Below are positions 24,766 to 47,074 of a stretch of DNA of 64,000 nucleotides, one piece after another. The notes beneath the pieces were generated by a model, which saw nothing but the letters and a program-made list of their open reading frames with translations, had not been told where the DNA came from and did no database searches. The position numbers and the translations under genes were made by a program. Source of the DNA: Corallium rubrum (taxonomy: Eukaryota > Cnidaria > Anthozoa > Scleralcyonacea > Coralliidae); contig OZ035997.1 in NCBI GenBank assembly GCA_964035015.1, positions 60,390,285-60,454,284 on the forward strand. Direction: 5' to 3'. The stretch's first letter is position 1, and each line of letters begins with the position of its first letter.

Positions 24766-24925
24766 TTTGAATTTCCAGAAATGAAAATTCGTTCCATTGA
24801 ACTTCTCGATGCGAGACAGCGCCGTTTCTTCTTTTTTGAAGCCATGCCAACATTCTCAGGTTACTTTCGCAAATAATAAATGTCGTACATCCAAGTTGCC
24901 CAAACTTAGCTCTGGGCCCATAACC

Positions 24926-26035: not shown

Positions 26036-26305
26036 TGCACAGAAATGGTGTCAAAATCGCAATGCGTGAAGCAAGAATTTTGTATTACAGAAAAAGATTT
26101 GATATTAAGCATAAAAATAAACCCAAGCGTGCTTGAAAAATTGTAAATAATATTCTTGGTCGCAAGCAGAAGGATACATCTATTAAAGAAGTAAAATTAG
26201 ACAATCACTATTTCCTCACCAAATAAAATTGCTTGGTGATATTGGTGCAACCGTAACAAGTACTATAATTGATGACAGTGAGTATAGTTTTAAAGATTAT
26301 ATTAA
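26036..26305 (+). pseudogene. LINE fragment, part 1 of 3 (linker before RT)
   Basis: The plus-strand translation includes VKIAMREARILYYRKRFD, NNILGRKQKDTSIKEVKL and DDSEYSFKDYIK, which match the pre-RT linker of the LINE at 5727-7856 (AWKTINSLLGRK...FQDYIKSSESEF). It stops at TTAA 26302-26305, where Kolobok copy 2 begins, and resumes at 46291. Confidence 0.7.
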
Positions 26306-26522
26306 AGGGGAACTGTCACCCCAAAACAAGTTATATGTTTATATCAAAGGTCTTACCACAAGCAGTGTCATCGCGAAGTATTTTGAGACAACTCTTTTTC
26401 GTTTGCGAGATATGAGCGATGAGGTAAGTAGAAAATTACAACGTAGAACGGCGCCGTCTTTGCCTTTTCAGTGGGCGCTTATATTCAGCGGTATCTCGCA
26501 TGTGACGTCACTTGAGTGCTTC
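26306..26522. repeat. Kolobok copy 2, left TIR
   Basis: 217 bp, pairs with 46290-46154 followed by 35010-34933. Starts AGGGGAACTGTCACCCC after TTAA and ends near GTGACGTCACTTGAGTGCTT. Confidence 0.85.
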
Positions 26523-27839
26523 CACTGCTTCGATCTATTTTCGATTAAAGTTTTCGATTGTTTGTTTCAACAGTTTGGAATGGATTCTTCTAATTCTTCG
26601 TGCAAGTAGATCATCTATGAATGGATATGTGTCGATAATGAAGGCTGTGCGTCCAGTTTATCACGTTCGAATAATTCCGATGGGAGCGATACGGACACCG
26701 ATAGTTCAGAGTATTTATACATGGATATATGAAATGGGGAGAATGTATATATGTTATTTACCGGCTAATATTTTTCTATATGGACCGACCAAAACGGTAA
26801 ATAACGTATTTATTTTTTTTGTTACATAATTAGATAAATTAAAGTAATTATAATTTAGTTAAGTTGCGTAATCGAGATGACGTTCACGTGATATTCAAAA
26901 GTCCAAAGTTTATCGTTCGACAGGAAACAACTGCCGACATGCAGTCTTACAGGGAAGCTTGGAATCTTTTTTGTGATAAAAAAACAACATTCAAAACTTG
27001 TAGATCTAGTTACGAAGGGAAGTCAAAATGAAGTCCAAGTGTTTTTAAAGTTTAGTTGATAAAGATTCTTCGTCGTTCTTCTTCATCGCTTGCTCGTTTT
27101 TGGCTGTTCGCTTAGAAAGTCGCTTTCAATATTTGGCTGACTGCTTGAAAATTGAATGTGTGGTCCTCGAGTTTGAAGACGAAAATGCTTGTAGTAAGCC
27201 ATTTGTAATTTCAAGTTTCAAGGACATGAGACAATGAGGTTGGCATGTGGAAACTATTTGACTAAAAGGTAAAGACTTGTAGCGGTTTTGTTGAGTATAG
27301 CGGTTGGTAACAGAAGAAAGAATCAAAGACAGTTTAGTGTCAATTGTCAAAAGGTTTCAGCTTTTCTATCTTAATCTTGTGGTATGATTGTTTATATATA
27401 CTTCTATATAGTTTCATTTAGTGATTCAAAATACTGTGTTCACAAGTTTATGTATGTTTTCCCTACTGTTTTAAACTGTTTCCTTTATAAATATCGCTCG
27501 TACATTTTGCTTTGTCACAGTTTTCCCAGCGTTTCTTTTAAAATTCGCTGTTTGTATATGAAGTTGTCAAAACCATTTGTATAATAAAACTCATTTGCAT
27601 CCCCGTAGCTCTCTGTTGAATATATTTTTTTCTGTTGCAAGCGGCATAGTTATGAAAGCCGATCAATTTTAAATGACAGAATGTAAGAAAATAACTTGTT
27701 GGACCGCGGTCAGATATCGTAAAAAACTGCCCGCTCACGTAGCCAATTAAATTGCAGGAAAGCCTAGGATTCCGCCCGCTCGCGACTAAAAAAAAAATAA
27801 AAAACCTTATCAGTTTGAGTCAGTTAGGGAAGTAAATAC
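26523..27839. other. Kolobok copy 2 interior without recognised gene
   Basis: Non-coding stretch between the left TIR and the ballast-like gene; presumably its promoter and leader on the plus strand. Nothing else recognised. Confidence 0.35.
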
Positions 27840-28445
27840 AGACGGACGATGATTGGGACTCTTACGAAGAACTCGAAAACGAAGCTCACGAAAGCCGTTT
27901 TGATAACTTGAACTGGTAAGATATTTCATAAAACAAGATGAACAAACATGTATAACCATTATTAACCAATTCTGTTTTTACAATATTAGTAATAGTGCTG
28001 GTATTCAATTTATATATTTAAGGTGTGAATGTGGCCACTGCCAAATCATGGACAAATATGAAGAAAATGTTTGCTGCCATGAAATTAACGAGGTCGTCAA
28101 CAAAAATTGTGAAGTGGCTGAAGTTGATGGGTTAGCAGAGAAGCCAAACTGCATAACTGACAATCTTGGATTCAATGCTGTATGTCTGAACCATTGGGTA
28201 TTGCAAATTCTGTGGTATTTTTATAAGCAACAGTATGGCTCCAAGATTTATGGAGGTCCAGAGCATAAAAAGAATAGACATGTATCATACAGGCAACTGG
28301 CAAGATGGTACTGAGGATTTTAAGTGAAAGAGATAAGAGTGGCCGTAACTTCTTGTGCAGTTAGGTACATAAGAGCACATTTTCCACCTCCAGGATTAGA
28401 AGAAACCTTTGAATTTGAAGGTTTTCATTATGCTGATGAGTACCA
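27840..28445 (+). pseudogene. P2X7-ballast-like gene of Kolobok copy 2, decayed
   Basis: Exon 1 ends at 27915 (acidic DSYEELENEAHESRFDNLN, donor GTAAG). Exon 2 starts at 28023 after TTTAAG and completes the Trp codon to give WCECGHCQIMDKYEENVCC, then CITDNLGFNAVCL, RHVSYRQLARW and TSCAVRYIRAHFP, and a FEGFHYADE end. The WCxCxxC, CC, CIT..F..VC and SC.V..IR..FP pattern is that of the P2X7 cytoplasmic ballast domain. Two in-frame stops near 28313 and 28322 disable it. No channel or membrane segment is present. It converges on the transposase of the same element, as in copy 1. Confidence 0.7.
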
Positions 28446-28906
28446 TTTGTTTAGGTTCTTACTACCTTCTTACTAGTTCAAAATTCAAAGTTTTCTTAAT
28501 TGTCTGTTCTTCACCAAGAACTTATGATGCACTTTTTATGATGCACAACATTTTTTAATCTTTTACTCTTTCCTGTTGGAGGATTCACCCCTTAACGAGT
28601 AAAATATTATAGTGTTAGCCAGAGTTGAAAACTAAATTAGGTATACTTTAGGCCACTGATTACCTACACGAACAGGAAAGAGTTGAGGCATACCATGCAC
28701 CTCCCTACATGTATATGTGCTGATTAAACTTGTTTGGTCAGAATGACTGGCCATGGGGCACTGTGGGTATAAAAAGTAATGTTATCGTGGCATTTATTGT
28801 CAATGATAAATTCTACTTGTTCATTCTGGATTGGTGTCTACTAATTACAACATGTTTCTCTGGTTTGGGTTTCTTGGAAATACGCTTTGCCATGGTGGAT
28901 ATGGTT
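28446..28906. other. Kolobok copy 2 interior, decayed
   Basis: Presumably the decayed C-terminal part of the transposase gene on the minus strand and the 3' ends of both genes; no clear protein matches. Confidence 0.3.
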
Positions 28907-29290
28907 TCAACATCTGTTGTTCAACATCTGTTCCACACTCCACCAGAGATGATTTGATGCTGACTTTATCCAAGGTGTTAATTCTTGATTTCCCTTTTTC
29001 TTTGCCAGCTCGGTTAGCTTCTTAGTAATAGACTTTGATAAGTGCCACACATCATATTGATGTACAATTTTAGGGTATTCTTTTAGGGTATTCGTATCTT
29101 GGCAGTTATTGTTACATGCCTGACGGTTGCTAGACATCGAACTAGAATCTTTTCATTCAACAGTTTGTCAAGAGACCTCTTACACCCTTCATATTCCATG
29201 ACATTAGATGAGGTCACCTCCGACACTTGGAATAGACTAAACTCGATCACCTTTCCTGATGACTCATCCATTAAGCTATGTGTCCCATAT
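28907..29290 (-). pseudogene. Kolobok copy 2 transposase, C-terminal half
   Basis: Minus-strand KYGTHSLMDESSGKVIEF, QVSEVTSSNVMEYEGCKRSL, RCLATVRHVTI, then (shifted) YPKIVHQYDVWHLSKSI and WIKSASNHLWWS. It aligns block by block with copy 1. The second catalytic Asp (ATDRH in copy 1) reads ATVRH here, so the residue is lost. It joins directly to the fragment ending at 33762 across the inserted copy 1. Confidence 0.8.
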
Positions 29291-29294
29291 TTAA

Positions 29295-29516
29295 AGGGGA
29301 ACTCCACCCCGGCAACATGTTTGCGTTATATTAAACTTAGTACGGTAAAGAACTTACCTTCCAAGTTTGACTGTTCATATTTGAATAGTTCGTCAGAAAT
29401 TTGCCATCGGAGTTCGCAAAATTCAAACACTTTCATCGCCATTTTGTGCAAGATCTGTAGGCTCGGAAATGGACAGCGGAAGTACCCATACGGCCGCTGT
29501 GACGTCATTGCGTGAA
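29295..29516. repeat. Kolobok copy 1, left TIR
   Basis: 222 bp; begins AGGGGAACTCCACCCC and ends at GTGACGTCATTGCGTGAA, the mirror of the right TIR. Confidence 0.9.
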
Positions 29517-29605
29517 GATTGTTTCGCGGGAAATATACGAATAGTCGACATATTGTTTCAATCGCATTGCAATTTTATTTCTAAAGTATTCATGTTTCCG
29601 ACGTT

Positions 29606-29938
29606 ATGCCTCATTGCATGGTTCCGGGATGTACAAATTGTAGTCAACGCTGTGGTGGTCGTGTAAGTTTTTATAGAATCCCATCAGATCAGAAAACGCG
29701 AAAGATATGGGTCAACAGAATACCTCGTGTCAATCCACGTCCTGTTGCTTACTCGTATGTCTGTTCAGACCATTTTACTGAAGATGCATTCGAGGTTTCA
29801 TTCATGGAACAACTTACTGGCGAGAAACAGCGGCGTAGGTTGCGTACCGGAGCAATACCGACTATATTTTCACGGCGATCACCGATGAAATCTCGTAAAA
29901 ATAGTGAAGCAAGACTGGCGGAACAAGCTAAATACAAG
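29606..29938 (+). CDS. Kolobok transposase exon 1: THAP zinc finger
   Basis: 111 codons from ATG 29606, the first Met of a canonical THAP start (MPHCMVPGCTN). The C2CH residues are Cys in MPHCMVPGC and CSDHF (Cys and His), with the invariant VSFYRIPSD, KIWVNRIPR and final GAIPTIF (AVPTIF motif). THAP domains bind the element ends in P and Kolobok-type transposases. The exon ends ...KYK at a GT donor (GTCAGT, 29939), phase 0, and joins exon 2 at 30423 across a 484-bp intron. Readthrough would give only four more residues before a stop. Confidence 0.85.
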
Positions 29939-30422
29939 GTCAGTAGACAGTAAGTTTGGTTTTCTTTAGGCCAGGCCGCCAGGGGAATGGAAGTCATAGA
30001 ATACCGTCCGAAAATATTTTTTTACAAATAATGAAATTTTTTGCGCCGGGCTTCAAACCAATGCAGGCGGAGGACGATATTCTATGACTTTATACGGTCT
30101 TAGCAGTATCTGCAGTGTCCATGAATTGACGTATCAAAGGTTTTATGCAGTAGCAATTTAATTCAGTACATCACGTTTCTCTGAAGATGATTCTAAAATA
30201 GAATTGAAACACTGCACGTCGTCGAACATAATACAATACACACCACATTATATTTATACTGAGATACTAATTTGAAATTTAAAATTCAATTTATTTCTAA
30301 TGAACAAGGATATAGTCATTGTACATCAATTAAATTATAGTTGCATGTTTTGAATATGATGACCTCCATTTAAATCATCTCAATTTTTTTGTCTAAAATC
30401 TCCTTTAATCTATGTATTTTAG

Positions 30423-32516
30423 ATGCTGGAAGAACTTCTCACGTGTAACAAAGAAAATATAGCAACTCAACCAGAGGAGAAAACCCCAGTTGAAGCTAAT
30501 AACCCAATCCAAGAAACAGTGGGCACGCTCACTTCAACTTCCAACACACATCAAGTTCTACTTATACAACAACCAGAAGAAGATATGGATGTTATGATAG
30601 CCAGGTCTGAGCCACGTGACTTGTCCTGTGAAGACAACCTAGAAAATTGTAGAGAACCACTCAAACTGAACATAGGAACACAGTGTAACACCAGGGTTAA
30701 ATGTCTGGTTTCTGTTGAGGTTCAAACAGATGTTTTGAAATTTAACCAACCTGTACTTGCAGACAAGGCTGTTCAGTTTGATGGGTACAGCAGTGAATCA
30801 ATGAACATGACAACAGAGGACATACCAGCAGACAATGGTTTGAGTGTTTCTGTGGGACTAAAACAAATTGCCGACCAAGTGAATCAATCAGCAGAAAATC
30901 CCCTCTTTATGCCCACTCCTATATGCCCTGAGCTTCCAGAATCTCCAGCATCAACAAACATTGATGATGAAGAGTCTGATAGTGACTTCACTATAAGTGG
31001 TGTATCAACTTCTGAAGACTCAGATTCCTCAGATGAAATTGATGTTGCAAAAGAGCTGATAAATACTAAGAAGTATTTGGTTTTTGAGAGTCAACTTGAC
31101 AAATTATTTACTCTTTGCCCAGAATGTTCTGCACCAATTACAAGCACAACAAAGCAGAAAGTAGGTTCCCTACTTTCTGTCAAGTATTCATGCATCAATG
31201 GGCACAGCTCAAAGTGGGATTCACAACCACTGATAAATGCAATGCCAGCAGGAAACCTTATTCTATCTGCAGCAATTCTTTTCAGTGGAAACACATACTC
31301 CAGCATTAGCAGTTTTTCAAGCTTCTGTGGCATGTCATTGCTTTCTGAAACAAAATTTTATGATGTTCAGAAACTATACTTATGGCCAATTATAAATAAT
31401 GCATGGCAGAAAATTCACCGGAAAAGTGCCATTGATGAAGCGAAGAAATCTGGTCCTATTGATCTTTGTGGAGATGGTCGAGCAGATAGCCCAGGACACA
31501 ATGCCAAGTATGGAACATATAGCATGATGGAAGAGTCGTCTGGACGAATCCTTGATACTCAGGTAGTCCAAGTAAGTGAAGTAACATCGTCAAATGCGAT
31601 GGAGCCAGAAGGTTGCAACAGATGCCTCAACGCTTTGATCAGTGAAAAGGTCAAAATTCGATGCTTGGCAACAGACCGGCACACCACAGTTACTTCCAAC
31701 ATGAGGAAGCTCTATCCAAAAATAAAACACCAATATGACACATGGCACTTGGCAAAATGGGTAGTCAAAAAGCTGACGAAGAAAGCAAAGAGTAAAGGTT
31801 GTGAAGATCTTAACCACTGGATTCAGTCTATTTCCAATCACTTGTGGTGGAGTGCAGCGAACTGTGGAGGTGATGCCACTGTTCTCATGGAAAAGTGGAC
31901 ATCAATAATACACCACGTAACAAATAAGCATTCTTGGGGTGGTTGCAAGAAATTCAAGAAATGTGTCCATCACCGACTCACAAGGCGGGAAGTGAAAAGC
32001 ACTGACTGGATCAAGGCAGGCTCACCTAGCCACCAGGTATTACTAGAAGTTGTCCTCAATAAAAGGTTCCTGAAGGATCTACAAAAGATGACAGAGTTTC
32101 ACCACACTGGTGAATTAGAGGTCTTCCATTCATTGATGCTGAAGTACCTTCCAAAGCGTCAGCATTTCCCATACAGAGGAATGGTTGCTAGAACACAACT
32201 TGCAGCAATGGATCATAATTTTAACCTTGACCGATCTCAGGCAGTAACATCCAACAAAGATGGCCATGGTGGACAGGAACGTTACAAGGTGGTCTTTCCC
32301 AAAGGGCGCAAGAACTGGGTTGCAAAACCTATGAAGAAGAAAAAATCATACAAGCATGTTTTTGACATGTTGTATAATGTTGTCAAGGTGAAGTTGGAGG
32401 GCAGGAAAGTCACGGGTATCACAGTACCAGACAAAATTCCGAAAAATATTGCTCCAATGCCAAGACCTGAGAAAAACGCTATTATTGCCAGGCACAAGTC
32501 GAGATTTGGCAAGTAG
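30423..32516 (+). CDS. Kolobok transposase exon 2: catalytic domain
   Basis: 697 codons in phase 0 after a TTTTAG acceptor; with exon 1 the protein is 808 aa. An acidic, probably disordered segment (~aa 110-330 of the whole) precedes CPECSAPI and the catalytic region. The probable DDE residues are in LCGDGRADSPGH (~461), CLATDRHTTV (~528) and HTGELEVFH (~673). Other conserved blocks are QVSEVTSSNAMEPEGC, HQYDTWHLAKW, SISNHLWWSA and KYLPKRQHFPYRGM. These blocks recur in the decayed copy 2. It should act in the nucleus to cut and paste at TTAA. A possible poly(A) signal AATAAA is at 32653. Assignment to Kolobok rests on THAP, TTAA and the D-D-E blocks. Confidence 0.85.
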   Translation: MLEELLTCNKENIATQPEEKTPVEANNPIQETVGTLTSTSNTHQVLLIQQPEEDMDVMIARSEPRDLSCEDNLENCREPLKLNIGTQCNTRVKCLVSVEVQTDVLKFNQPVLADKAVQFDGYSSESMNMTTEDIPADNGLSVSVGLKQIADQVNQSAENPLFMPTPICPELPESPASTNIDDEESDSDFTISGVSTSEDSDSSDEIDVAKELINTKKYLVFESQLDKLFTLCPECSAPITSTTKQKVGSLLSVKYSCINGHSSKWDSQPLINAMPAGNLILSAAILFSGNTYSSISSFSSFCGMSLLSETKFYDVQKLYLWPIINNAWQKIHRKSAIDEAKKSGPIDLCGDGRADSPGHNAKYGTYSMMEESSGRILDTQVVQVSEVTSSNAMEPEGCNRCLNALISEKVKIRCLATDRHTTVTSNMRKLYPKIKHQYDTWHLAKWVVKKLTKKAKSKGCEDLNHWIQSISNHLWWSAANCGGDATVLMEKWTSIIHHVTNKHSWGGCKKFKKCVHHRLTRREVKSTDWIKAGSPSHQVLLEVVLNKRFLKDLQKMTEFHHTGELEVFHSLMLKYLPKRQHFPYRGMVARTQLAAMDHNFNLDRSQAVTSNKDGHGGQERYKVVFPKGRKNWVAKPMKKKKSYKHVFDMLYNVVKVKLEGRKVTGITVPDKIPKNIAPMPRPEKNAIIARHKSRFGK

Positions 32517-32689
32517 AATGTTATTGACCTCTTGATATGTGAATGTTATATATAAATTTAAATTCTAACTTAGAGAAACGTTTAAGCGAGAAACTATAAA
32601 ATCTAACTGAGTTGATTCAAATTCAAATACAAATGTATTATACAAGTATTTAAATAAAAAAACGAGCATCACAAACGATTCTTTACAGT

Positions 32690-33458
32690 TTACACTGGAA
32701 AATCTTCATCGTCATCTGGGTCTCGAAAGCCAGTGTAGCCGTTATTTTCTTCAGGATATGCATCTCTAATCGACCACACAGAACAAGATGGAATAACTTT
32801 CCTTACAGCCTTCCCCAATCGTGCATGTATCCACCAAGTGAACTGCCGATATGCTGCCAATCGTAGAATTCTAAATTTTACACAGAACAAATATGACAAT
32901 GTAAACATCGACAACAACTTTAAAAATAAAACAAAAGTACAATTTAGTTGTATTATTCCATATAATATTACATGTACATGAAAGTTATTATAAACACGCT
33001 AATGTCATATAAATACCTGTTTTCTAAAGGCTCCGGTAAAGCATCGCTTCTAACGTCGTGCATACAAACCAATGCAGTTCGTAAAACATCGGGATGTTTG
33101 CACACAACGTCGAATGATGGGACATTCGTAATGCAGATAGCACTTGCCTCTGAAAAATACATAAAACAACATATACATATAAACGAGTTTTTTTACCATA
33201 TGGGCGCAAATTTTATCACACTCCCTTACCATCCAGTTTCTGATTAAGTTCTGCCATCTCTTGACAACATAGACTTTCTCTTTCTGTGTCCATTGGCCTA
33301 CAAGCTTTGCACTTGCACCACGAAACATTTCCAGTCCGTACCTGGTCGTTGTCGCTCTCCATTTCATCAGATTCGCCACTGTTTTCTTCTGAATCACTTT
33401 CCTCAACAATTGGTTTTATTGGCTCAAATGCGTAAGGTTGAATACTCTCCGCTGTCAT
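32690..33458 (-). CDS. P2X7-ballast-like accessory protein of Kolobok copy 1 (3 exons)
   Basis: Exons 33230-33458, 33017-33149 and 32690-32870, each with GT-AG borders and matching phases. Together about 181 codons, with no stop. The N-terminus is acidic (EESDSEENSGESDEMESD). Then come VSWCKCKACRPMDTE, SLCCQEM, CITNVPSFDVVC, LAAYRQFTWWIHARLG, IPSCSVWSIRDAYPEENNGY and an acidic end. The Cys pattern and the YRQ...W..ARLG...IPSC.VW.IR..P....Y.GF block are those of the P2X7 C-terminal ballast domain, which in the receptor binds zinc and a guanine nucleotide. There is no transmembrane segment, so it is not a channel. It converges on the transposase gene inside the TIRs. A role in transposition is an inference. 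Confidence 0.75.
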
Positions 33459-33536
33459 TAGGTTTGTTATAAAATAAACAGTATAATAAAACAGACTTTC
33501 TTTATCAACTGTGTATTAAAGCTTTTTCGGCTCGCT

Positions 33537-33757
33537 TTCACGCAATGACGTCACAGCGGCCGTATGGGCATTCCGCTGTCCATTTCCGAGCCTACAGATC
33601 TTGCACAAAATGGCGATGAAAGTGTTTGAATTTTGCGAACTCCGATGGCAAATTTCTGACGAACTATTCAAATATGAACAGTCAAACTTGGAAGGTAAGT
33701 TCTTTGCCATACTAAGTTTAATATAACGCAAACATGTTGCCGGGGTGGAGTTCCCCT
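33537..33757. repeat. Kolobok copy 1, right TIR
   Basis: 221 bp, reverse complement of 29295-29516. Confidence 0.9.
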
Positions 33758-33761
33758 TTAA

Positions 33762-34499
33762 CTGAGTGACCTGGGTGTCACATCAGCCATCCCCACAAAT
33801 GTCAATTGCTCGCTTTGATTTCCCACTGGCGTTCCATTAACACAAGTTTGAGAATCCCAAATACAAGTATGTCCCTATAAGCAAACAGTTCTAACAGTCA
33901 GCATAGAACCTGTACATATTTTCTTTTTTCAATAACTGCCAGGCCACATGCAGAGCAAAATTTAAAAAGTTCGTTATCCTCAAGAACTAAAAACTTCTGT
34001 GTTTTGACAGTGTCAGTTATTGATGCAGTTCCTATTTCATTTTCACTGTCACTTTCAGACACAGAGGATTCCTTTGAGTAAGAATCATTGGTAGTCTCCA
34101 TTGCATTGTCACTGAGGTCATCACTGGCGCTGTGACCTTCGTCCATACTTTCAGTTTCAGGACAAGACTGCGCTGGCTGTTGAGATTCATCAAAATGAGA
34201 GGCTGGGTATACTGCTGGACCAAAGCTAAGGATGCAACACAATAGTTGTGGAACAACTTCTTCAATAATTTGCTGCCAATTTTTAGAAAAACAACTGTCA
34301 TCAGTTTGGGTGTCTACAGTTTTATACGCTTTAACGTACAAGTTACACTGTGTTCCAGTATCTACGCTCTTAGGGTGAGATTCTGAACAAGTGAAGGCAG
34401 CTTTTGTTTGGCTGTTTTCAACAGGGTTTTGACATTGTGGTTTGGCAACTTTCTCTTCGACTGGTTTGCCCGAAATGTTGTCCATCAACAATTCCATTT
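33762..34499 (-). pseudogene. Kolobok copy 2 transposase, exon 2 first half
   Basis: Starts MELLMDNISGKPVEEK after a CTCTAG acceptor (34500). It has the same acidic region (VDTGTQCN, SVSESDSENE) as copy 1 and FCSACGLAVI in place of CPECSAPI. After frame breaks it reads IDICGDG, stop, CDTPGHSV at ~33800-33762, equivalent to LCGDGRADSPGHNA of copy 1. The reading continues at 29290 (KYGTHS...), so copy 1 landed in this codon run at GTTAAATAT. Confidence 0.8.
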
Positions 34500-34585
34500 C
34501 TAGAGAGACAATCGCTAAAATTAGTTACATGTCCAGCTAAAGTTAACAGTGTTGCTAGCTTAATATTAAAGCGCAAGAATTTTAC

Positions 34586-34859
34586 TTGCCTCCTTCCTTT
34601 CCCGACAACGTTGTGCAAAAATATCGTTGGAACCGCATCTGGTTTCAAAGATCTTCTTGGGTTTAATATTCTTTGGGCTTGCGTATCTAGGAAACAATCC
34701 GGTGTAAAGTGCTCGCTGCATACAAATGAATTTTTGACATTGCGGGGATTTTCCTTGCGAATCTTCTGAAGCCAAACGTTCTGTAATTCTCCTTTCGGCA
34801 ATCGGTGGTACATTAATAAACCAGCCGTTGGTGTACCCGGGGACCATGCAGTGAGGCAT
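34586..34859 (-). pseudogene. Kolobok copy 2 THAP exon, frameshifted
   Basis: MPHCMVPGYTNG (the second zinc Cys is Tyr here), then in another frame YHRLPKGELQNVWLQKIRKE, SFVCSEHFTPDCF and DAVPTIF. A frame break near 34815 and the Cys-to-Tyr change make it non-functional. The donor is at ~34585 (CAAGTAAAA). Confidence 0.8.
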
Positions 34860-35010
34860 TTCTCAAATAACAGTATAAATTAATACTAATTATAAAATGC
34901 AAAGCAATAAACAAATCGATTGTCAACTGCTCGAAGCACTCAAGTGACGTCACATGCGAGATACCGCTGAATATAAGCGTCCACTGAAAAGGCAAAGATG
35001 GCGCCGTTCT

Positions 35011-35189
35011 TGTCATGATTGTATTAATGTCGTATGTCGTCATCGACTTCTTGACATGCACTTCGACATGTCACGTGAACAGACTGTAGTTCGAGGAAAC
35101 TATATATACTTTCTGAGTAAACGAAGCAATAAACATACTTTGTATTTGTGTGAGTAGTGGCAATCGACTATCCATTTGAACACGCGACA
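35011..35189 (+). repeat. Gypsy 5' LTR
   Basis: 179 bp, about ten differences from the 3' LTR. Contains the TATATATAC and AATAAA-like segments expected of a small LTR. Confidence 0.9.
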
Positions 35190-35227
35190 TGGTGTCAGGA
35201 GTGGGATTTGGATGCGTTTAAGTAGTC

Positions 35228-35424
35228 ATGGCCGAAGATCAGCCACAAGTAGCCGAAACACCACAGATTTTTATTGCTCCATCGAACTTGCCTCCGCCGA
35301 AGCCACTAACATTCGACGACAACTTGGCCACAACATGGAAGTCTTGGAAGAAAGCATGGTCACGGTATGAAATTGCCACCGGCGTACACAAACAAGAAGG
35401 AATTGTCTGAGTATCTACATTATT
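35228..35424 (+). pseudogene. Gypsy gag N-terminus
   Basis: MAEDQPQVAETPQIF, then PPPKPLTFDDNLATTWKSWK, the start of a gypsy gag. It is interrupted at TA 35424-35425 by a 4.7-kb element and resumes at 40143. Confidence 0.7.
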
Positions 35425-35429
35425 ACACT

Positions 35430-35920
35430 GCAAATTCTCCGAATCTTGTTTTAAGGATAAAAATCCTTGTTTCAAGGATAATTTTCCTTAAAATAAGAAA
35501 AATTATCTCGTCCCTTCTACAAGATAATTATCTTGATAAGATTTCTTGACAAGATTATTTTTCTTAAATTAAGGATTTTTATCTTGTTCACAAATCTTGT
35601 TTCAAGAAAAAAAATCTTGTTTTAAGGATAAAAATCTTTGTTTCAAGGATAATTTTCCTTAAAATAAGAAAAATTATCTCGTCCCTTCTACAAGATAATT
35701 ATCTTGATAAGATTTCTTGACAAGATTATTTTTCTTAAATTAAGGATTTTTATCTGGTTCACAAATCTTGTTTTAAGGAAAATTTTCCTTAAAATGAAAA
35801 AAATTATCTTGTCTCTTCTACATAATAATTACATGATAATTATCTTGAGACAAGATTATTTTCCTTAAATCAAGGATTTTTATCTTGTTTACAAAACCTT
35901 GTTTTAACATAAAAATCACA
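35430..35920. repeat. Left subterminal AAGATAATTTTCCTTAA repeats
   Basis: About three ~160-bp units, each with AATCTTGTTTTAAGGA and CTTAAATTAAGGATTTTTAT. The counterpart with inverted orientation is at 39720-40140. Confidence 0.75.
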
Positions 35921-36044
35921 ACATACAAATATAACAGAATGATTTAAATATTTAATAAGACATACAGTATATAGTTTAGAAGAAAAATGTTTAAACATGA
36001 AATCAATAAAGTACATGTATATTAAAAATATATATGTCAATAGC

Positions 36045-37190
36045 TCACTCTCCAGAGTAGAACTTTTCTACTTCATTTAAAAATCTTGTGACGTCCCCTT
36101 GGACATCTGGATGGACAGTCTTATCATTAAACACAATGTTCTGTAGCACAGATAACGATACTTGCCAACCATAGTCGTAGTCCAACAGGTAAAATGCCCC
36201 TAATAAAGCTGTGATGGCTCTCAACATTTCCTTTTTTGAAAACAGTTAGGATGTTTTGCCCAAGTAATAGTACAGCACCAGTTTTCGAAACCAGAAGCCC
36301 CGGGATAAAACCTGGCCGCTTCCACTGCCAATCATCAGGTTTCTTATCATCCTAAAATTATAGGACCAATCAAATCGATAAGAATGGAAGCTTGTAATAA
36401 ATGTATGAAGCCTTAATATCATACCTCAATAGTATGGAAGATCTCTTGCACTTTTGATTGTTTCAAAGATATTTTAGCTCTCCCGTTAAAAACTGAATTG
36501 ATTCTTTTGATGAGGTGAAGGTCAATTTTATCACAAATATTCTTAAAGTGCCTATCTAACATGTGTGGAGTTTACATATTTGTAATATTTAGAGCATTCT
36601 AAGAATAAATGCAATATATTTTCTTAGCCAAAAACTTCACCTTCATAGATTTTTTGGCTGTCAAATTTACTGAAAGAGGCAATGGACATCAGTTTTCTTT
36701 TGTTTCTCGCCACAGAAATGCCTCTTTCGGTGTCTGAAGATGATTTTTTGCCTGAGAAGATATATTGCATTTCTTCTCAGAATGTTCCAAATATTACAAA
36801 TACTGATATGTAAAATCCCAAGGATGAGATATGTCTATCTCATCCTTGGGATTTTACATGCACGTATAAATAAACTTAATTTTTCCTGGATTACATGCAA
36901 AACTTAACTGTTATGGAACTAATTGAACTAAAATATTGAACAGTTGTGTCTTGGTCCATACAATATACAGTATCGATCCATACACTGTCAGTTAAAGTTG
37001 CTATCATGTTGGGGGTTTTTTACCTTCAGTTAGGATGGTTGGGGGTTTCAAGGTTCCTTTGGAAATCCCATAATAGATCAGATTATCCAATTTTGCCTTT
37101 AGGGTATTAACAGATTTTCCCATAAAATCTTCCACATTTCCTGTAGATGACAGTATAGACCAAGAGTCCATCTCACCTCCTCAATCACCT
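36045..37190 (-). pseudogene. Unidentified multi-exon gene remnant inside the TA element
   Basis: Three minus-strand exons can be read. ~37180-37025 gives MDSWSILSSTGNVEDFMGK, ...LKAKLDNLIYYGISKG, donor GTAAAA. ~36566-36427 gives RHFKNICDKIDLHLIKRINS, ...KVQEIFHTIE, donor GTATGA. ~36350-36045 gives DDKKPDDWQWKRPGFIPGLL, then, after a one-base break in an A run (~36235), MLRAITALLGAFYLLDYDYG and VTRFLNEVEKFYSGE, stop. A C-terminal YLLDYDY...LQN block of this type occurs in uncharacterised invertebrate proteins, but I cannot name the family. Its upstream exons, if any, lie towards 39500. Confidence 0.5.
36560..36870. repeat. Foldback within the TA element
   Basis: TTTACATATTTGTAATATTT (~36572) pairs with AAATATTACAAATACTGATA (~36790). 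Just beyond is a near-perfect hairpin TGTAAAATCCCAAGGATGAG / CTCATCCTTGGGATTTTACA (36808-36860). Confidence 0.6.
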
Positions 37191-39719
37191 CAAGCAACAA
37201 ATACAAAAAATATTAAACTAGAGTTATACAGGTTATTCACAAGTTTGTCAAACAACAAATTAATTTTTATGAATACAAACCAGTTCACATAATAGTCTAA
37301 AAAGTAGTACATAACATACATTAAATGGTACTACATAATATGTAGGGTTTTATGCAAGCACTTTTTAGGTCTGGTTACTGGACCTAGAAACTTAAACTGG
37401 AATTGAGTTTTAATATTCAATCTTGAATTGCAAATAAATTATATGTGACTTTTGCATGTTCACGATCTTTAATCTTCCAAAATATTAATTTGTTGTTGTT
37501 AATGCAGTTTTATATTTCAGATAAAATATTAATGTTCATACCAGATTACATGTACCTAGGATTACATGTAACCTCGAGTCAGTGCTTGGATAAAACCCTG
37601 TAATATTATATAATATAATAATAGTATGTAGGATTACATCTAGTATATACACTATACTCTAGGGAAGTAAAGGGCTGGCCTTTCACACATTCAAACTTGC
37701 TGCCATTTGTGTTTTCTTACATGCCTTTTCTGATGTTACCTCCACCATGACCAAATACAAGTACTGTAATTAACACATCTTCCCTGGGAAGCCCCTTTTA
37801 TAGTGCAGCTTCCACTTCAAGCATGTTAAGGGTACTGTATATTTTCAAAATCCTGTAAATACCAGACTTTACAGAAAAGTGGGGCTCAGAGAGAATTGTG
37901 CCCTAATTATAAGACAAGTTGGCCTAGTAACTCTGGACTAGTAACTTCAGCTTTACCAGTTCCAGGAACAGTGTTTAAAAAAATTTATAAGGCCGAGCAC
38001 TCAAAAACTATATTCATATAGTAGATTCCTGATTTACTCAATCATAGCATTTGAGGTATAACTATATAGAATACCCCGCTGCTTTTACAACTACAACATA
38101 TTAATCAGGTCGAATATTGTCATATTCATTTCAAAATCATCAAATAAAATTGGTTTGTTCTCAGTCATGGGGATTCAATTAGGGTTAGTTTTTGGATTTG
38201 GGTAAGGTTTCATCATCACACTTTAAGTTCCAACACTTTGTACAAAGGGTTCATTGCTTTATTTTCATGCAAAAATACAAACTCAAAAGTGGCAGGGTAT
38301 TCCATAGTTGCTCCACATTTGTTAGTTTAAACTCCAAATAACTCAAAGCATTTTTGTTTGCACAAAATGTTCGACTTGCTAGAATTCTACTGTATATACA
38401 TGTGAGAAAGTGAAAATATGATGAAATGTTTCAAATCTAGTACTTTTTGATTGGATACTGATATCACCAGGCATAAGATAAATATCATATTCATATATAA
38501 TTTTTCTCTGAATAAAACTTACAGAGCTCTTTCTCCAAAATGTTCCATAATTTTCACCTTAGAATGAAATTCTGATGTCCATCAAAAAGATCTTTTAAGT
38601 CTTCTCTTTCAAAGTTCATCAAAGTTTCTTCATCCCCATTTGCATCTATAACAAGAGGCAATATTGACATAAAGACACAGGGATACTTCAAATGGAGAAA
38701 TGTATGACGTCACAACGACAACATGGCAAATTTTTCACTTTTACGCCTAAAACCCAATATTTCTTTATCTAAACTCGACTTCAATCATTGTTTATACAAA
38801 AATATTTTAACTAATTCACTAAACTCCCACATTACATTAATACACTTTAGTAATAGAGTGCTTTTCAATTTTAATACCTTCAAGAATGTTGAATGCTTCT
38901 GGTTCCAAGTTCCAACACTCTTTATCTGTTCCATGGTTTTTCAGTTCCTCAGTTGTTTCCCTAGTTGCTACCAAAGAAACGCAATTTAAAAGATTGTGAA
39001 ACAATCGTATAAGGACATTCTTACAGAATACTAAAGAAATCAAACACATATATCATTGTCATACTGAGACGAGTCACGAGTATCATACCTTGAATTTGTC
39101 CGCTCTTGAAAATCTTCGACTTTTAAAATACTAATATAGATTTCAAGGTTTCACTGATCTCCAGATTCAGTTCTTATAGAGCTTCCTCGAGTATATATAC
39201 ATCTTGGATGCTTAAATATACTTTCTGTAGAACAATAAATCGAGAATCCTTCGTTGAATGGTGGTGAAATCAGTTTGAAAAGGACGCGGAACAACGTGTA
39301 TCTTCCCAAGATGCAATTGTCTCGAAATCGGATAGTACCGCGACTCTCGCCCGGCAGTCGGTTAACAATCGGGGTCGATTCGGTCACGAGCGTCGCGACC
39401 AATATACAGTACCAACGGCTGTGATATTTATCGACAGAAGTGAAAAGATGGCGAGCACATGGATATGCGAGAAATGCATGTTGTTTTCAACCCTAACGTT
39501 GAAAATGTTAGTACGACATACTTCTACAGAGCACGCAGAACACGCAGAGAAGCCTCCTAGAAACCCGCCTAAACCCTATTAAACTCAAGTAATATTATAT
39601 TTATACCCAATTAAACAAATGTCATCATTTTACTCTATGCATAAATTGAGCAATTTCAGCAATACCGTATGTTGATCACGATACAAACAAATGTTTTTGC
39701 ACAAAATGCGTCTACTTAA
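37191..39719. other. Interior of the TA element, unassigned
   Basis: AT-rich introns or filler. Minus-strand open stretches near 38837-39049 and 39151-39402 could be 5' exons of the gene remnant but show nothing I recognise. Confidence 0.3.
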
Positions 39720-40140
39720 AAATATAAATTCTTGAAACAAGATATTTCATTTGCAGGCAAGATAATTTTTCTTGGTAAGATGATTTATCTTACATTTAAA
39801 AAGTAAAATCTTAAAACTGGATAATTTTTCTTAAAAAACAAGATATTTTATTTGCAGGCAAGATAATTTTTCTTGGTAAGATGATTGATCTTATAGTTTA
39901 AAAAGTAAAATCTTAAAACTAGATAATTTTTCTTAAAACAAGATAATTTTTCTTAAAAGTAAGATATTTCAGTTTTGTAGGCAAGATAATTTTTCTTGCT
40001 AAGATGATTTATCTTATATTTGAAAAATAAAATCTTAAAACAAGATACTTTTCCTTAAAACAAGATATTTTTCCTTAAAATAAGATATTTTTTCTTAAAA
40101 GTAAGCAAAAAAATCTTGGCAAGATTTGAAGAATTTGCAG
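39720..40140. repeat. Right subterminal AAGATAATTTTTCTT repeats
   Basis: Several ~110-130-bp units containing GGCAAGATAATTTTTCTTG and TAAAATCTTAAAAC, inverted relative to the left array. Confidence 0.75.
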
Positions 40141-40142
40141 TG

Positions 40143-40862
40143 TAAGTGTTATTGGAGGGGACCGTGTTAAGGCACATGACACTTTCACATGGGACGAAGG
40201 GGAAGATCAGAATGACATTGACATTGTTTTACGAAAGTTTGATCAATATTGCACGCCGAGAACACAAATAATTTACGAACGATACCGTTTCAACAATAGA
40301 AACCAAGAACCAGGAGAAAATATCTCAAACTATTTAACCGAACTGCGAACGATTGCAAAAAGTTACCCTCATGGTGATACAATTACGCCAGACGAAATCC
40401 TTCATGACCGCCTTGTGTTGGGTATTCGCGATGATCATGTACGAGAACGTTTATTGAGGTCAAACGAACTTACACTACAGAAGGCAGTCGACATCATAAA
40501 GGCAGCAGAACAAACCCAACAGCAAGTTAAGTTCATGACCGCGGGAGAAGATTCAGTTAACCTGTTACACAAACAACGAAGTGAACGGGCACAACAACCT
40601 TTGGAAATGAACCATCGCAAATGTCTAATCAGCGCCCTCAGAACAGGCTACCTCAGAATCAAAGAAATTTTAGACGACGCGCGAACAGGGAGAGTTTGCT
40701 ACAGAATGCGTAAATTGTGGCATGACACATGAAGAACGAAACTGTCCGGCATTTGAAAAAAAGTGTTTTAACTGTGACAAAATGAACCATTTTGCGCGCA
40801 AGTGTCGATCAGTAAAGAATAAAGAATCAAAGGTTCACCAGTTCTATTTTCGACAGCGCTGA
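40143..40862 (+). pseudogene. Gypsy gag C-terminal part with zinc knuckle
   Basis: Resumes gag: VKAHDTFTWDEGEDQNDIDI, ...GENISNYLTELRTIAKSYP, RLVLGIRDDHVRERLLR, then (frame change near 40620) CVNCGMTHEERNCPAF and the knuckle KCFNCDKMNHFARKCR. Frameshifts and a stop disable it. Confidence 0.75.
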
Positions 40863-40890
40863 GCCCACAGCACGAAAAGCTGTAATCAAT

Positions 40891-41243
40891 ATGCAAATTT
40901 CAAAACCTGAGAATACAGTTCAATTTCAAATAGATACAGGATCACAATGCGATATCCTACCAGCGAGCCTATACACACAAGTCACAGGTGACAAGCTGCT
41001 TCATCGTTTGAAGAAATGCAACAAAGAGATTGTTTCATATACGGGAGAGCGCCGCAGAATTACCAGTAAAGTGAAACTGCCTATTTGGTTCAAGGGTCAG
41101 CGAAGGTTTTTACAGTTCAACATCATTGACGGAGATTACCAATCAATATTGTCGTTAGATACAAGCATCCAGAACAGACCACACCAACAGAAAAGACCTC
41201 GCCAACAGACCTTGTCGAAGAGTATGCCGACGTTTTTGAAGGC
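40891..41243 (+). pseudogene. Gypsy protease
   Basis: Retropepsin-type FQIDTGSQCDILPASLY with the catalytic DTGS, followed by a region that leaves frame before RT. Confidence 0.75.
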
Positions 41244-42192
41244 TTGCGGGAGATACCAGGAACCTACGAGATTGTCCTTCATGACACAGTGAAGCCAGTT
41301 GTCCACGCACCTCGATGGGTACCAGTGGCATTGCAATCGCGAGTAAAAGAAAAGCTGGATGAATTGGTCAAACGCGAAGTCATAACACCTGTCACAGAGC
41401 CGACTTGTTCGGTGTCTAGCATGTTAGCAGTGGTACAACCAAACAAACTACGAAGATGTATTGATCCAAGAAGTTCTATACAAAGGGGACATTATCAGCT
41501 ACCCATCGTAGAAGAGACCTCAACGCGATTAACCGGAGCCAAGAAGTTCACTCTTTATGACGCAAAGGATGGATTCCACCAAATCAAGCTAGACAAGGCC
41601 TCAAGTTATCTGACCTCAAGTTATCTGACCACCTTCAGCACACCCTTCGGTCGGGACCGTTGGAACCGCATGCCCTTTGGAGTATCAAGCGCACCAGAAG
41701 TATGGCAAAGGCGAATACATGAGTTTGTTTAAGGTCTTAGTGGAGTTGAAGTTATAGCGGACGATTTCTTTATAGCTGGATTTGATGAAACAGAAGAAGA
41801 TGTACATCGTAGCCTAGAAGCGAATGAAAGAGCGTTTTTTTCAGAAGTGCCGCGAGTGGAACCTTAAACTAAACAGATCGAAGTTGAGGAGAGCGCAGAT
41901 GGAAGTTCGTTTCATGGGACATATTCTCACCCCCGCTGGCCTTAAAGCTGACCCAGCAAAAGTGGAAGCCATCCTCGACATGCCCACACCAAGTGACACC
42001 AAAGGACTAAAGAGATATTTTGGGATGGTGAATTATCTTGCTAAGTTCTTGCTTTTATTGTCGGACATGACAGAACCCCTAAGAAGACTCGAAGACAAGG
42101 ATGTCGAGTGGTGTTGGCTCGAACAACATCAGGCAAGCATTCGACACCGTCAAACAAACTATAGCGAAGGCTCCAGTCCTGAGATATTATGA
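41244..42192 (+). pseudogene. Gypsy reverse transcriptase, interrupted
   Basis: RT motifs RWVPVALQSRVKEKLDELVK, RRCIDPRSS, FTLYDAKDGFHQIKLD and TPFGRDRWNRMPFG, then a stop at 41730, VIADDFFIAG, and MGHILTPAGLKADPAK. A 15-bp tandem duplication at 41600-41630 repeats the residues SSYLT inside the palm. The stop, frameshifts and duplication make it inactive. Confidence 0.8.
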
Positions 42193-42740
42193 TGTCAAAG
42201 GTGAAGTGACCATTGAATGTGATGCTAGTGACACTGGCCTGGGTGCGGTGCTGATGCAAAAAGGATAACCTGTTGTTTTTGCTTCTAGGGCATTAACGGA
42301 TACAGAAACCAGCTATGCCCAAATAGAAAAAGAATTATTAGCTATCGTGTGGTCAACCAGCAAATTCGATCAGTACATCTTGGGCAGAGACGCCGTCACT
42401 ATAGAATCGGACCATGAACCCCTGAAGGCGGTTTTCAGTAAACCTATCCACAGATTCCCAAAGAGATTGCAGAGAATGTTAATGGCCCTCCAAAACTACA
42501 ATCTTAACATACAGTACAAAAAAAGGAAAACATATGTGGATATCAGATACATTGAGTCGTGCATATCGCAACACCACAGAGTCATGGCAACACGACACAA
42601 CTGTGGTACAAGCACTGGAAGAGATCGCTCACACATAGAATCTATATCAGTCTCTCCAGAAAAATTGGTGCAGTTCAAACAAGCGACATCATCGGACGAT
42701 AAGCGACATCATCGGACGCATAAAGCCCTTGAATACTAAT
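42193..42740 (+). pseudogene. Gypsy RNase H
   Basis: VTIECDASDTGLGAVLMQKG, a stop at 42266, then PVVFASRALTDTETSYAQIE, ...ESDHEPLKAVF. It breaks off near 42740, before the integrase zinc-binding region. A 21-bp unit AGCGACATCATCGGACG is duplicated at ~42684-42720. Confidence 0.75.
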
Positions 42741-42744
42741 TAGA

Positions 42745-44925
42745 AAAGAAATGAAGAAAAAGCTAGGAAAATCTTTGTCGAAGGTAGAAAAAATAGACAA
42801 AACTTTGTTGGAAAACCTCCTCAATAATTATTTAAGTCAGATAAATCCCTCGAACGTCGGGATTTATGCTATATAAAGCCCTCGGACGCTGTGCATCCTC
42901 GGGTCTTTATAATAGTATAAATCCCTCGTTCTCGTGCTTTATCCTATACGTAACCTGCTAATAGTATTTTGAGATATAAAGATGCCTATTGGAATAGATC
43001 ATTATGTCATTAATCAATAAATAAACTACCAGTATTATTTAAGGATTTTACTTACCAATATAGACAGCAAGTTGAATGGTTGAACACAACTGAACATGGT
43101 AACTCTACTCTATGGACTAGAAAACAAGAGAAAATAATATATGAATGAATAAGCAAACAAACAAACAAACAAACAAACAAACAAACAAACAAACAAACAA
43201 ACAAACAAACAAACAAACAAACAAACAAACAAACGAACGAACGAACGAACGAACGAACGAACGAACGAACGAACGAACGAACGAACGAACAAACAAACAA
43301 ACAAACAAACAAACAAACAAACAAACAAACAAACAAACGCACACAAAACATACTTTACTGTTAGTCTGTTTAATACCAACAATTTAATATTTCATATACT
43401 GTAATCACAAATAACTTTTACCTCAAAATCTGAATGCTTTAGTTTTACATAAGATAATCCTTATCATGAAAGCAACGGTGGCTAAAGAATGGTAAAAAAA
43501 GAAAGAATGATTTGAGAGTTTGTTAGGAACCACAATTGACTATTACTGTAAATTAAATTGTGAAGACAAGAAGAGATTTTATAAAGCCAACATTGTTGAC
43601 GACAAAAGATGATAAACATTGACTTCAACTACACTAACTTCGATCAGTATAAAATGGTTTGTATTGGACAATCAAACAGGAAATTGACAACGAGAGCCAG
43701 AGAAAATTTCACATTACAATAAGTAGGACGATAGAAAACAAACGATTACTGAATTTATAGCTTTACCTTGCTGGTAGCCTCGTGCGAGCGAAGCTTCTAG
43801 GACTTTCTTGGTTCAACTCGATTTCCATGGCTTTTAGTTAAATCTTTCCGTAGAAGAACATGTTATTTCGGTGAAGACTGTCTTCCTGATCTCTTCGCAA
43901 ACAAAAAGTCTTATTTCCAAGGGTTTATGTAGCTCACCATCTGACAGTTCATCACAAGTGAATTTCAAACGTGGCGCACTGAGATGGGATGACGCTATCC
44001 CAAGTATCAATGCGCGCTCGCTGCGCGGAGCATACGCGGTATCGTGGCTACGACACTGGCTAGAGGGGGCCTCTGCACTGGTGACGGCGTAATTAATCTT
44101 GCAAGCACATAACAGTGGTAGAATCATGTGAAACAACTTTAAGATTGATTGAATTGCTTCAAGTTGAACATAAATATGTAGTTTTTCAGAACAGCCCATC
44201 TCTCCCTGGCAAGATATGTTGTCAGCTTCCAAATCTTGTTGATAGAGATTAGATTATTTCCTAAGATTAATAGGTACTTGTATTATATATTTACAATTTT
44301 GAGCATGGTTATTCGCAAGATCGTAATTCTGTATCAAAGAATAGTTAAGTTTTAGTCTAGGTTAGCGAAAACTTATCGATCAATTTCTGATTATACAATT
44401 TTATTTTCTTGTATAAATTTAAAACTTTGGTGAGCTAGGAAACTATTGTCGAATATGATATCTTCAGATAACCATATAGCAAATATTGAAAATACTGATC
44501 TGTTACAGAATTTATAAATAAACATGTGCATATTTCTGTTTTTAGCTTAATAAAGTCAAGTTCCCTGTTTTTGTAACTATTTTTTACTGCAGCAAAGCAT
44601 TCCCTATCATAGTAGTATAAATTGGTAATAATTACAAAGTGATTTATTTCATGATTTTTTTTCCACATATGAAACTTAACTTTTACATATGAAATTTTTT
44701 ATTTCATATGTGAACAATTTTTCATATATGAATTTTTTTATTTCATATGTGAAAATTGTTATCACATATGAAATGAACAAAATTCATATGTGAAATTATT
44801 CATTTAACATATGAAATATGGCATTTCATATGTGGAATTGTTTTCCACATATGAAATTCGTCATTTCACATATGAAATAGTTCATTTCATATATGAAATT
44901 CCAACTTCATATGTGAAATGACATA
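42745..44925. mobile_element. Insertion within gypsy pol, unidentified
   Basis: About 2.2 kb separates RNase H from the integrase core and lacks gypsy coding sequence. The right part is an array of CATATG palindromes; the left part has a microsatellite. No clean TIR pair or target-site duplication was established, so the limits are approximate. A minus-strand frame at 43834-44232 is of unknown origin. Confidence 0.45.
43149..43337. repeat. (AAAC)n(GAAC)n(AAAC)n microsatellite
   Basis: About 21 AAAC units, a block of ~14 GAAC units, then ~12 AAAC units. Long open frames across it are artefacts. Confidence 0.95.
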
Positions 44926-44935
44926 TGAAGGGCGG
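44660..44935. repeat. Array of CATATG-centred palindromes
   Basis: Roughly sixteen copies of TTTCATATGTGAAA-like units spaced ~15-20 bp with variable centres (CATATG, CATATA). Each unit is itself a palindrome. The array ends exactly where gypsy integrase coding sequence resumes. Confidence 0.8.
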
Positions 44936-45890
44936 AAGACAGCAATTCGTCCTGCTTGTGGATGACTGGAGTGATTTTTTCGAAGTTCAGGAACTAATGA
45001 GCACTACCTCCGCTAAAGTCACAGCAGCCTGCAAGGTTCAGTTTTCACGACATGGAATACCAGAAACTGTCATAACAGACAATGGTCCCCAATTTTCAGC
45101 TGCGGAGTTCAACGCGTTTTCAACAGAATGGCAATTTTAACACCGTACTTCGAGTCCCGATTATCCACAATCAAATGGATGGGCAGAAAATGCTGTCAAG
45201 ACCTGCAAAATGTTACTAAAGAAAGCTAAAGCTGCTGGCGAAGACCCACTGTTGGCTTTCTTAGATTGGAGAAACACGCCGACAGAATGTTTAGAATCTT
45301 CACCTGCGCAGAGGTTGATGGGACGCCGAACACGAACATTGTTACCCACTCACAAAGAACTCCTTAAGCAGGACATCGTCACCGACACAAAAGACAAACT
45401 GGCATACCGAAAATCACGACAAAGTCGCCAATACAACAAGAAGCACTGTCCTCTACAACCATTGAAGCATGGACATGCCATTCGGATGAGATTACCAAAC
45501 GAAACAAAGTGGACACTTGGAACTTGTACCAATGTATTAGGAAACAGATCATACGAAGTGGAAGTCAGTGGTAGACGATACCGCCGAAATCGCCGACACC
45601 TTAGAGCAACTCAAGAAAAGCCTCCACCTAAAGCAACGCCATTCATGCCAAATGAGTCAGAAATCGAGCCCCACAAGCAAAACCAAAACAAACCTGGAGA
45701 TCCACATAATCCAACGGAATCCAACCTAGAACATCACTCTCAATTAGAACTTCCGGTACCTGGTGCAGAGTCAACTGAAATACGACCACGAAGTCCGAAC
45801 GCACACGAAGAACACCGTTGTGGCATAAGGATTATTCCATGCACTCTGTTCAGAGTATTGGACAACCGAAATATTGACTACTGTGTATAA
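44926..45890 (+). pseudogene. Gypsy integrase
   Basis: Catalytic core FVLLVDDWSDFFEV (D), VITDNGPQFSAAEF (D), a stop at 45138, then YPQSNGWAENAVKT (E). The C-terminal DNA-binding part runs to about 45890 with KWTLGTCTNVLGNRSYEVEV. The N-terminal H2C2 zinc domain is missing, lost at the insertion. No chromodomain seen. Confidence 0.8.
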
Positions 45891-45969
45891 TTACCGCATG
45901 TACATACCGTTCATATTACAAAAAAAGACAAAAACAAAAAAACAAACAAAAACGAAGAACGAAGGAAAA

Positions 45970-46148
45970 TGTCACGATTGTATTAATGTCGTATGGCGTC
46001 ATCGACTTGTTGACATGCACTTCGACATGTCACGTGAACAGACTGTAGTTCGAGGAAACTATACATACTTTCTGAGTAAACGAAGCAATAGACATACCTT
46101 ATATTTGTGTGAGTACTATCAATCGACTATCCATTTGAACACGCGACA
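45970..46148 (+). repeat. Gypsy 3' LTR
   Basis: 179 bp, preceded by the purine-rich GAAGAACGAAGGAAAA and followed by the target duplicate GTTCT. Confidence 0.9.
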
Positions 46149-46294
46149 GTTCTACGTTGTAATTTTCTACTTATCTCATCGCTCATATCTCGCAAACGAG
46201 AACGAGTTGTCTCAAAATACTTCGCGATGACACTGCTTGTGGTAAGACCTTTGATATAAACATAACCCTCTTTGGGTTGACAGTTCCCCTTTAA

Positions 46295-46800: not shown

Positions 46801-47074
46801 TTAAATAAAAGAAAAACCTTCGTTGAGTCCATGAGGATGAATGGTTCCAATTTTGAAAATGAGACGCTTTTCCTGTCGTTTGCGGCTATGATTGCCACCG
46901 GAAATGGGTGAGATAGCACAAACTTTCATGTCAGAAATATGATGGTTGACACTATTAAAATGTCGGGCAACAGGCTTGTCAACATCATTGTTCCTCACAG
47001 AACGAAGATGTTCAGCAAACCTGTCAGATAAACGTCTGCCAGTTTCACCAATGTAGAGCATGCAGCATTTACTG
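46801..47074 (-). pseudogene. Penelope GIY-YIG endonuclease end (minus copy)
   Basis: CCMLYIGETGRRLSDRFAEH, ...KPVARHFNSVNHHISD and KRLIFKIGTIHPHGLNEGFS, stop. Only the C-terminus is present; the upstream residues CISCSKC lie at 48680-48727 beyond the MULE-like insertion. Confidence 0.8.

Follow-up and report, generated by a model that had tools for sequence, protein, structure and literature searches.

The window analysed here is a 64,000-nucleotide stretch of the Corallium rubrum genome (assembly GCA_964035015.1, contig OZ035997.1, positions 60,390,285 to 60,454,284). It contains two Kol0-type Kolobok DNA transposons of two families, termed copy 1 and copy 2, and the subject of this work is the second gene, KolX, that they carry beside the transposase. 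Copy 1 is a complete element. It is bordered by TTAA at 29291-29294 and 33758-33761, its terminal inverted repeats match over ∼200 bp at 97% identity plus 32 bp at 100%, and its ends (AGGGG...CCCCT) have the 5'-RR ... YY-3' termini of Kol0 Kolobok. The THAP domain of its transposase is clear, and the sole Pfam match in the DDE region is to MULE, below the cut-off. KolX is convergent with the transposase and sits beyond its stop, before the right repeat; its predicted product of 180 residues matches the Pfam family P2RX7_C (E=9.1e-23) and the solved chains of the P2X7 receptor in the PDB (E=4.5e-9). An earlier note on this DNA had described a three-exon minus-strand gene next to a THAP transposase and had likened its protein to the P2X7 ballast domain. 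Both genes were found within the TTAA-bounded element, and the profile matches make the same likeness clear at the sequence level for the predicted protein.

Copy 2 is an older relative of copy 1 that is interrupted by copy 1 and by a long terminal repeat (LTR) retrotransposon. It had been taken as a 20-kb span, but the majority of that span consists of later insertions and its net length, after subtraction of the nested copy 1 and the retrotransposon, is 4380 bp. The KolX exon of copy 2 shares 62% identity with a query assembled from L051 and L052, two damaged KolX copies of another family, and its transposase is fragmented across different frames. The proposed mirror-image arrangement of the two genes stands, with transposase remnants on the minus strand and the KolX exon on the plus strand, but the second gene is broken by two stops. 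The retrotransposon itself contains a 4.7-kb element (35424-40144) with inverted ends.

Table 1. Positions of copy 1, copy 2 and the retrotransposon in the window.
Feature	Position	Strand	Remarks
Copy 1, complete Kolobok (Kol0-type) element	29295..33757	+	TTAA both sides, termini AG...CT
Copy 1, left terminal inverted repeat	29295..29516	+	
Copy 1, transposase exon with THAP DNA-binding domain	29606..29953	+	PF05485 E=6.2e-19
Copy 1, transposase DDE exon	30423..32516	+	open frame of 697 residues
Copy 1, KolX exon 3 (predicted)	32690..32870	-	LRLAAYR ... IPSC.VW.IR
Copy 1, KolX exon 2 (predicted)	33017..33149	-	CIT..F..VC
Copy 1, KolX exon 1 (predicted)	33230..33458	-	PYxFEP motif, acidic stretch, WCxCxxC, CC
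Copy 1, right terminal inverted repeat	33537..33757	-	
Copy 2, left part	26306..29290		TTAA at 26302-26305
Copy 2, KolX exon	28021..28440	+	7 of 7 zinc cysteines (by eye), two in-frame stops
Copy 2, transposase DDE remnants	28940..29292	-	two frames
Copy 2, middle part	33762..35013		
Copy 2, transposase remnants	33818..33999	-	two frames and a stop
Copy 2, THAP exon remnant	34619..34868	-	frame changes
LTR retrotransposon inside copy 2	35014..46147	+	outside the KolX/transposase system; LTRs 94% alike, target duplication GTTCT
Copy 2, right end	46148..46290		TTAA at 46291-46294

The passages of Kojima and Bao (2022, PMC9587614) considered here report that KolX is encoded by Kol0 Kolobok families and has the ballast fold, and that a fusion with KolX gave rise to P2X7; a few piggyBac families are said there to have a similar protein. 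The suggestion that the second gene bears on the origin of P2X7 was right, yet it was already in print, and the central KolX–P2X7 link is not new here. As far as those passages describe them, Kol0-group Kolobok elements with KolX (Kolobok-1_XT type) have the transposase, KolX, TTAA, RR...YY termini and ballast assignment in common with the window elements, which differ solely as families and are ordinary new members of an already known kind. The words THAP, CXC, purifying and synonymous are absent from the main text of that paper. KolX shares with the P2X7 ballast domain (PF20478; 6u9v and others) the seven zinc cysteines and the AYR and IR blocks; unlike it, KolX is free-standing, has no channel and only partly retains the nucleotide site. 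No P2X–ballast fusion was seen in the genome, where the one P2X locus found (C30:10786539-10795881) has no ballast match nearby among those listed.

KolX is retained and conserved across families

The 50 transposase loci compared here derive from a genome search with the copy 1 transposase, in which the best 64 of 598 candidates were scored and 68 matches were merged. These loci are not independent, several families being represented by near-identical copies, and the search is biased to relatives of copy 1. A KolX gene detectable at the Pfam level lies within 7 kb of 23 of them. The Pfam scan alone would have left the L051-type families without KolX, which was ruled out when a divergent KolX was found by reading the DNA. 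Once this divergent KolX was added as a second query, KolX was located downstream of 43 of the 50 loci (within 7 kb), on the opposite strand and hence convergent in all 43. The remaining seven loci comprise a short fragment (C23:12723902), a locus near a contig end (C306) and five others for which the search lists give no KolX within 7 kb; the partial downstream flanks of four of these five (all but C22:15004335) were read and contained none. At C1:63652095 a KolX match lies 15 kb off on the opposite strand, and for both C22 loci one lies 12-18 kb off on the same strand.

Close relatives of copy 1 have the same organization. A DNA search of the 474-Mb genome with copy 1, in which the best 40 of 299 candidates were scored, gave at least seven copies spanning most of its coding part. 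Both genes are present in identical arrangement in all seven, as are the GT and AG splice sites of KolX, and TTAA flanks both sides in five of the seven (copy 1 and four of the six relatives with both ends aligned). The transposase frame of 697 residues is open in two of the seven, and two further copies have a frame of 655 residues. Loci L041 and L042 resemble one duplicated locus. These two and L043 have short insertions (5, 5 and 7 bp) that share one site in KolX exon 2, near copy-1 position 33062, and are perhaps excision footprints. There are too few changes within this family to judge selection on KolX.

Selection was assessed between families. Open ballast frames are present at 26 of the 30 loci L009-L038; after deduplication these gave 18 sequences which, together with copy 1, formed a set of 19 distinct ballast exons and 112 codons. 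The ratio of nonsynonymous to synonymous substitution rates (omega) over this set is 0.054, with a log likelihood of −2967.9 compared with −3333.5 when omega is fixed to 1. Five pairs at a synonymous divergence (dS) of 0.86-1.3 gave omega values of 0.07-0.08, and four close pairs (dS ∼0.04, with 4 to 7 changes each) gave 0.09-0.50; the pairwise values omit the rest, which were saturated or differed too little. Picking open frames lowers omega somewhat, but not to 0.054. Hence, purifying selection on the ballast exon is strong between families. The retention at 43 loci, the uniform convergence, the presence of the gene in all seven copies of copy 1's family (with an open frame in only three) and the low omega together uphold the earlier view of the second protein as a standing component of this transposon lineage.

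The seven zinc cysteines and four of the five nucleotide-site residues (all but K583), numbered after Rump et al. (2020, PMC7016195), were compared across a set of eight representatives, namely copy 1, L051 joined with L052, L069, L035, L021, L009, L070 and L071. Every representative has all seven zinc cysteines and residues equivalent to R546 and R578; the H547 position is histidine in four of the eight and R574 is present in none. The proposed guanine-nucleotide binding is thus partly reflected in the sequences, which keep two arginines that could serve such a site, whereas the histidine is kept in half of them and the third arginine in none. In the parts of Rump et al. (2020) used here only these two arginines are reported outside deuterostomes, whereas some KolX representatives also retain the histidine. 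The same parts describe Nanor and other short proteins with the zinc-cysteine domain found in KolX, and fewer than 10 zinc-cysteine-domain genes per species. By comparison, a PF20478 search of the C. rubrum genome (E≤0.01, best 150 of 325 candidates scored) gave 155 exon-level matches, copies included, of which 150 were listed. No word beginning with transpos occurs in the main text of that study. An apparent fusion protein of 1966 residues at C197 was rejected, its frame being mostly a run of N. At C39:3055441-3057111 (G000) the last third of the ballast profile recurs in five tandem copies with a spacing of 375 bp.

Three architectures and a CXC-like module

Three architectures of the transposase/KolX pair were distinguished. 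In the window type (copy 1 and the L051 family) the transposase bears THAP, which passages of a frog study (PMC6004289) describe as typical of Kolobok transposases, and KolX consists of a PYxFEP-like motif, an acidic stretch and the ballast domain. A cysteine-rich CXC-like module was sought by strict pattern in the window and in L039-L044 and L051-L054, and none was found. In the second architecture (clade 2), exemplified by the complete 6867-bp element L069, the N-terminal transposase exon is unlike THAP, and the ballast exon is preceded on its own strand by a cysteine-rich exon with a closing CxN. In the four clade-2 elements examined (L063, L064, L065 and L069) the transposase stretches all lack a THAP match. 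A Pfam name for this N-terminal exon was sought and rejected, none of three having a family over the cut-off. At L069, L061+L063, L021+L064 and L009+L065 the non-THAP transposase start neighbours a ballast exon that is itself preceded by a CXC-like exon. In the third architecture (L070/L071) the transposase has THAP at its N-terminus and a CXC-like module at its C-terminus, and KolX is without the module. A simple swap, in which an element would have THAP or CXC and never both, is rejected by the L070/L071 transposase, which carries both.

The CXC-like exon occurs upstream of the ballast exon by pattern at 22 of the 30 loci L009-L038, and a similarity search gave 65 matches, 57 of them with a same-strand ballast exon downstream within 8 kb. 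In all five type-A families GT follows the exon directly, and between these families the proportions of synonymous (pS 0.61-0.93) and nonsynonymous (pN 0.10-0.14) differences contrast in a way that speaks for a coding exon, which would be joined to KolX by splicing. On the transposase side, the transposase tail and the CXC-like module form one open frame in nine of 12 genome matches, in two families that are 45-46% alike (L070 is outside these nine), and a convergent KolX lies within 3 kb of ten of the 12. The modules borne by the transposases of L070 and L071 fit the nine-cysteine spacing and closing CxN of the CXC domain of MSL2 and LIN54, as given in the part of PMC3447885 used here. When the strict CXC pattern with a relaxed Cys3-Cys4 loop was scanned over 358 kb of partly overlapping DNA chosen around KolX, a sample that gives no genome rate, 25 occurrences were obtained, all at clade-2 loci and L070/L071, compared with 0, 0 and 0 in three shuffles. 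No paper pairing Kolobok with CXC was among the best matches in the open-licence PubMed Central literature. One place, C12:3250921-3251067 (G000), exceeds the Pfam cut-off for a TCR-type CXC domain and is also the weakest match to the transposase-tail query.

The transposase and KolX trees match broadly. The groups L069+L035 and L070+L071 are recovered in both, and a clade of L069, L035, L021 and L009 has a support of 99 in the transposase tree and 60 in the KolX tree, where human P2X7 falls inside it. The human P2X7 ballast groups with L009 at a support of only 67.

KolX elements without a transposase core and neighbours of the copies

KolX is also found in elements that have lost the catalytic part of the transposase. 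Loci L023, L026-L030 and L032 are 2.4-kb Kolobok derivatives that have 43-bp repeats, show TTAA at each of seven distinct sites and retain the first transposase exon and a piece of the last; L066 and L068 are likewise ∼2.4-kb KolX carriers without the core. At least 10 full-length 2.4-kb copies, query included, are present among the matches listed, compared with four long relatives (6.3-6.9 kb, both ends), one of which was read. The majority of the 2.4-kb copies are young, six of the first seven being nearly identical. Continued selection on KolX in the core-less elements was considered and rejected: the two older copies have 10 nonsynonymous changes to 1 synonymous, and one is frameshifted. 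These elements show only that KolX can travel without the transposase core. KolX-only elements are untreated in the passages of PMC9587614 considered here.

Two further frames lie near the Kolobok copies in the window. A polyprotein frame of 1220 residues at 21193-24855 on the minus strand is presumably Copia-like, and an open frame at 46801-47343 resembles what we take to be the GIY-YIG nuclease of a Penelope-like element.

The role of KolX in transposition

We propose that KolX acts in transposition as a subunit that partners the transposase, with a probability of about 0.6. The retention of KolX, the selection on its ballast exon, the broadly matched trees and the link of the CXC-like module to either protein are the reasons for placing KolX at work with the transposase; by the logic of domain fusion, a domain associated with one protein in some lineages and with the other elsewhere points to a shared complex. 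The ballast domain would act as a zinc-stabilised docking scaffold through which KolX could contact the transposase physically, and DNA would be contacted by THAP and/or CXC-like modules borne by either protein. The CXC-like module may itself bind DNA, and guanine nucleotide may have some role. A fuller account is more tentative, and we consider it somewhat short of an even chance. In it KolX, from which the P2X7 tail descends, would be bound to DNA as part of the Kolobok transposition complex, with its zinc ballast docked on the transposase; a CXC DNA-binding module would have moved between the two proteins during evolution, and the P2X7 tail would have its source in a nuclear transposition cofactor.

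Several observations weigh against this proposal. Of the seven copies in copy 1's own family, three have an open KolX frame and four a broken one, and no purifying selection on KolX was detected in the two older core-less copies examined. The THAP/CXC pattern represents very few evolutionary changes in one genome, and the trees conflict over where L070/L071 join. The identity of the module is also less certain on the KolX side. None of eight aligned KolX-side modules fits the published CXC spacing, although the closing CxN is present in all eight: compared with the 4-7 residues given in the consulted part of PMC3447885, the Cys3-Cys4 loop is longer, at 11 or 14 in five modules, which otherwise conform, and 8 in the three of the L009-type sub-group, which also lack one cysteine. 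Type-B exons are less conserved between families than those of type A (pS 0.71-0.91, pN 0.20-0.31). The Pfam TCR family matches the L071 module at E=0.051 and 14.3 bits, compared with a cut-off of 23.5, and does not match that of L070; no KolX- or transposase-side module reaches the cut-off of any Pfam family, nor did any match a PDB entry. Five TCR matches were obtained in the genome (E≤0.01), none of them at L070, L071 or KolX-side places, with C12:3250921 as a possible exception.

KolX might alternatively be a self-regulator, that is, a free protein that binds DNA or the transposase and so limits transposition, by analogy with the repressors of P elements. Its position as a separate convergent gene and the CXC-like module beside it in one lineage would suit such a protein, and core-less elements could supply KolX without the enzyme. 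However, the strong conservation between families fits the need for an effector as well as for a repressor, and the core-less elements have no detectable purifying selection on KolX, so that we regard self-regulation as unlikely. More doubtful again is a host-interaction factor, acting for example against silencing, or a sensor of cell signals through the guanine-nucleotide site. The two arginines of that site found in all eight representatives would be expected of a sensor, but the remainder of the site is variable or missing, and a CXC-like module common to the KolX side and the transposase points to work on DNA. It is very improbable that KolX is a mere passenger, without any part in transposition. 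The elements that carry it without a transposase core, and the broken frames in copy 1's family, are what a passenger would leave, but an omega of 0.054 between families and the presence of KolX at 43 of 50 loci disfavour it.

The source of the P2X7 tail has been published, while the job of KolX for its own transposon is absent from the passages of PMC9587614 considered here. The partner-subunit proposal addresses that job, and the CXC-like module, which belongs to the transposase in one lineage and stands next to the ballast exon in another, provides a concrete and testable lead, namely a complex of the two proteins on the element ends. If this is true, the ballast domain of P2X7, a receptor that is a drug target, would have begun within a DNA-moving machine.

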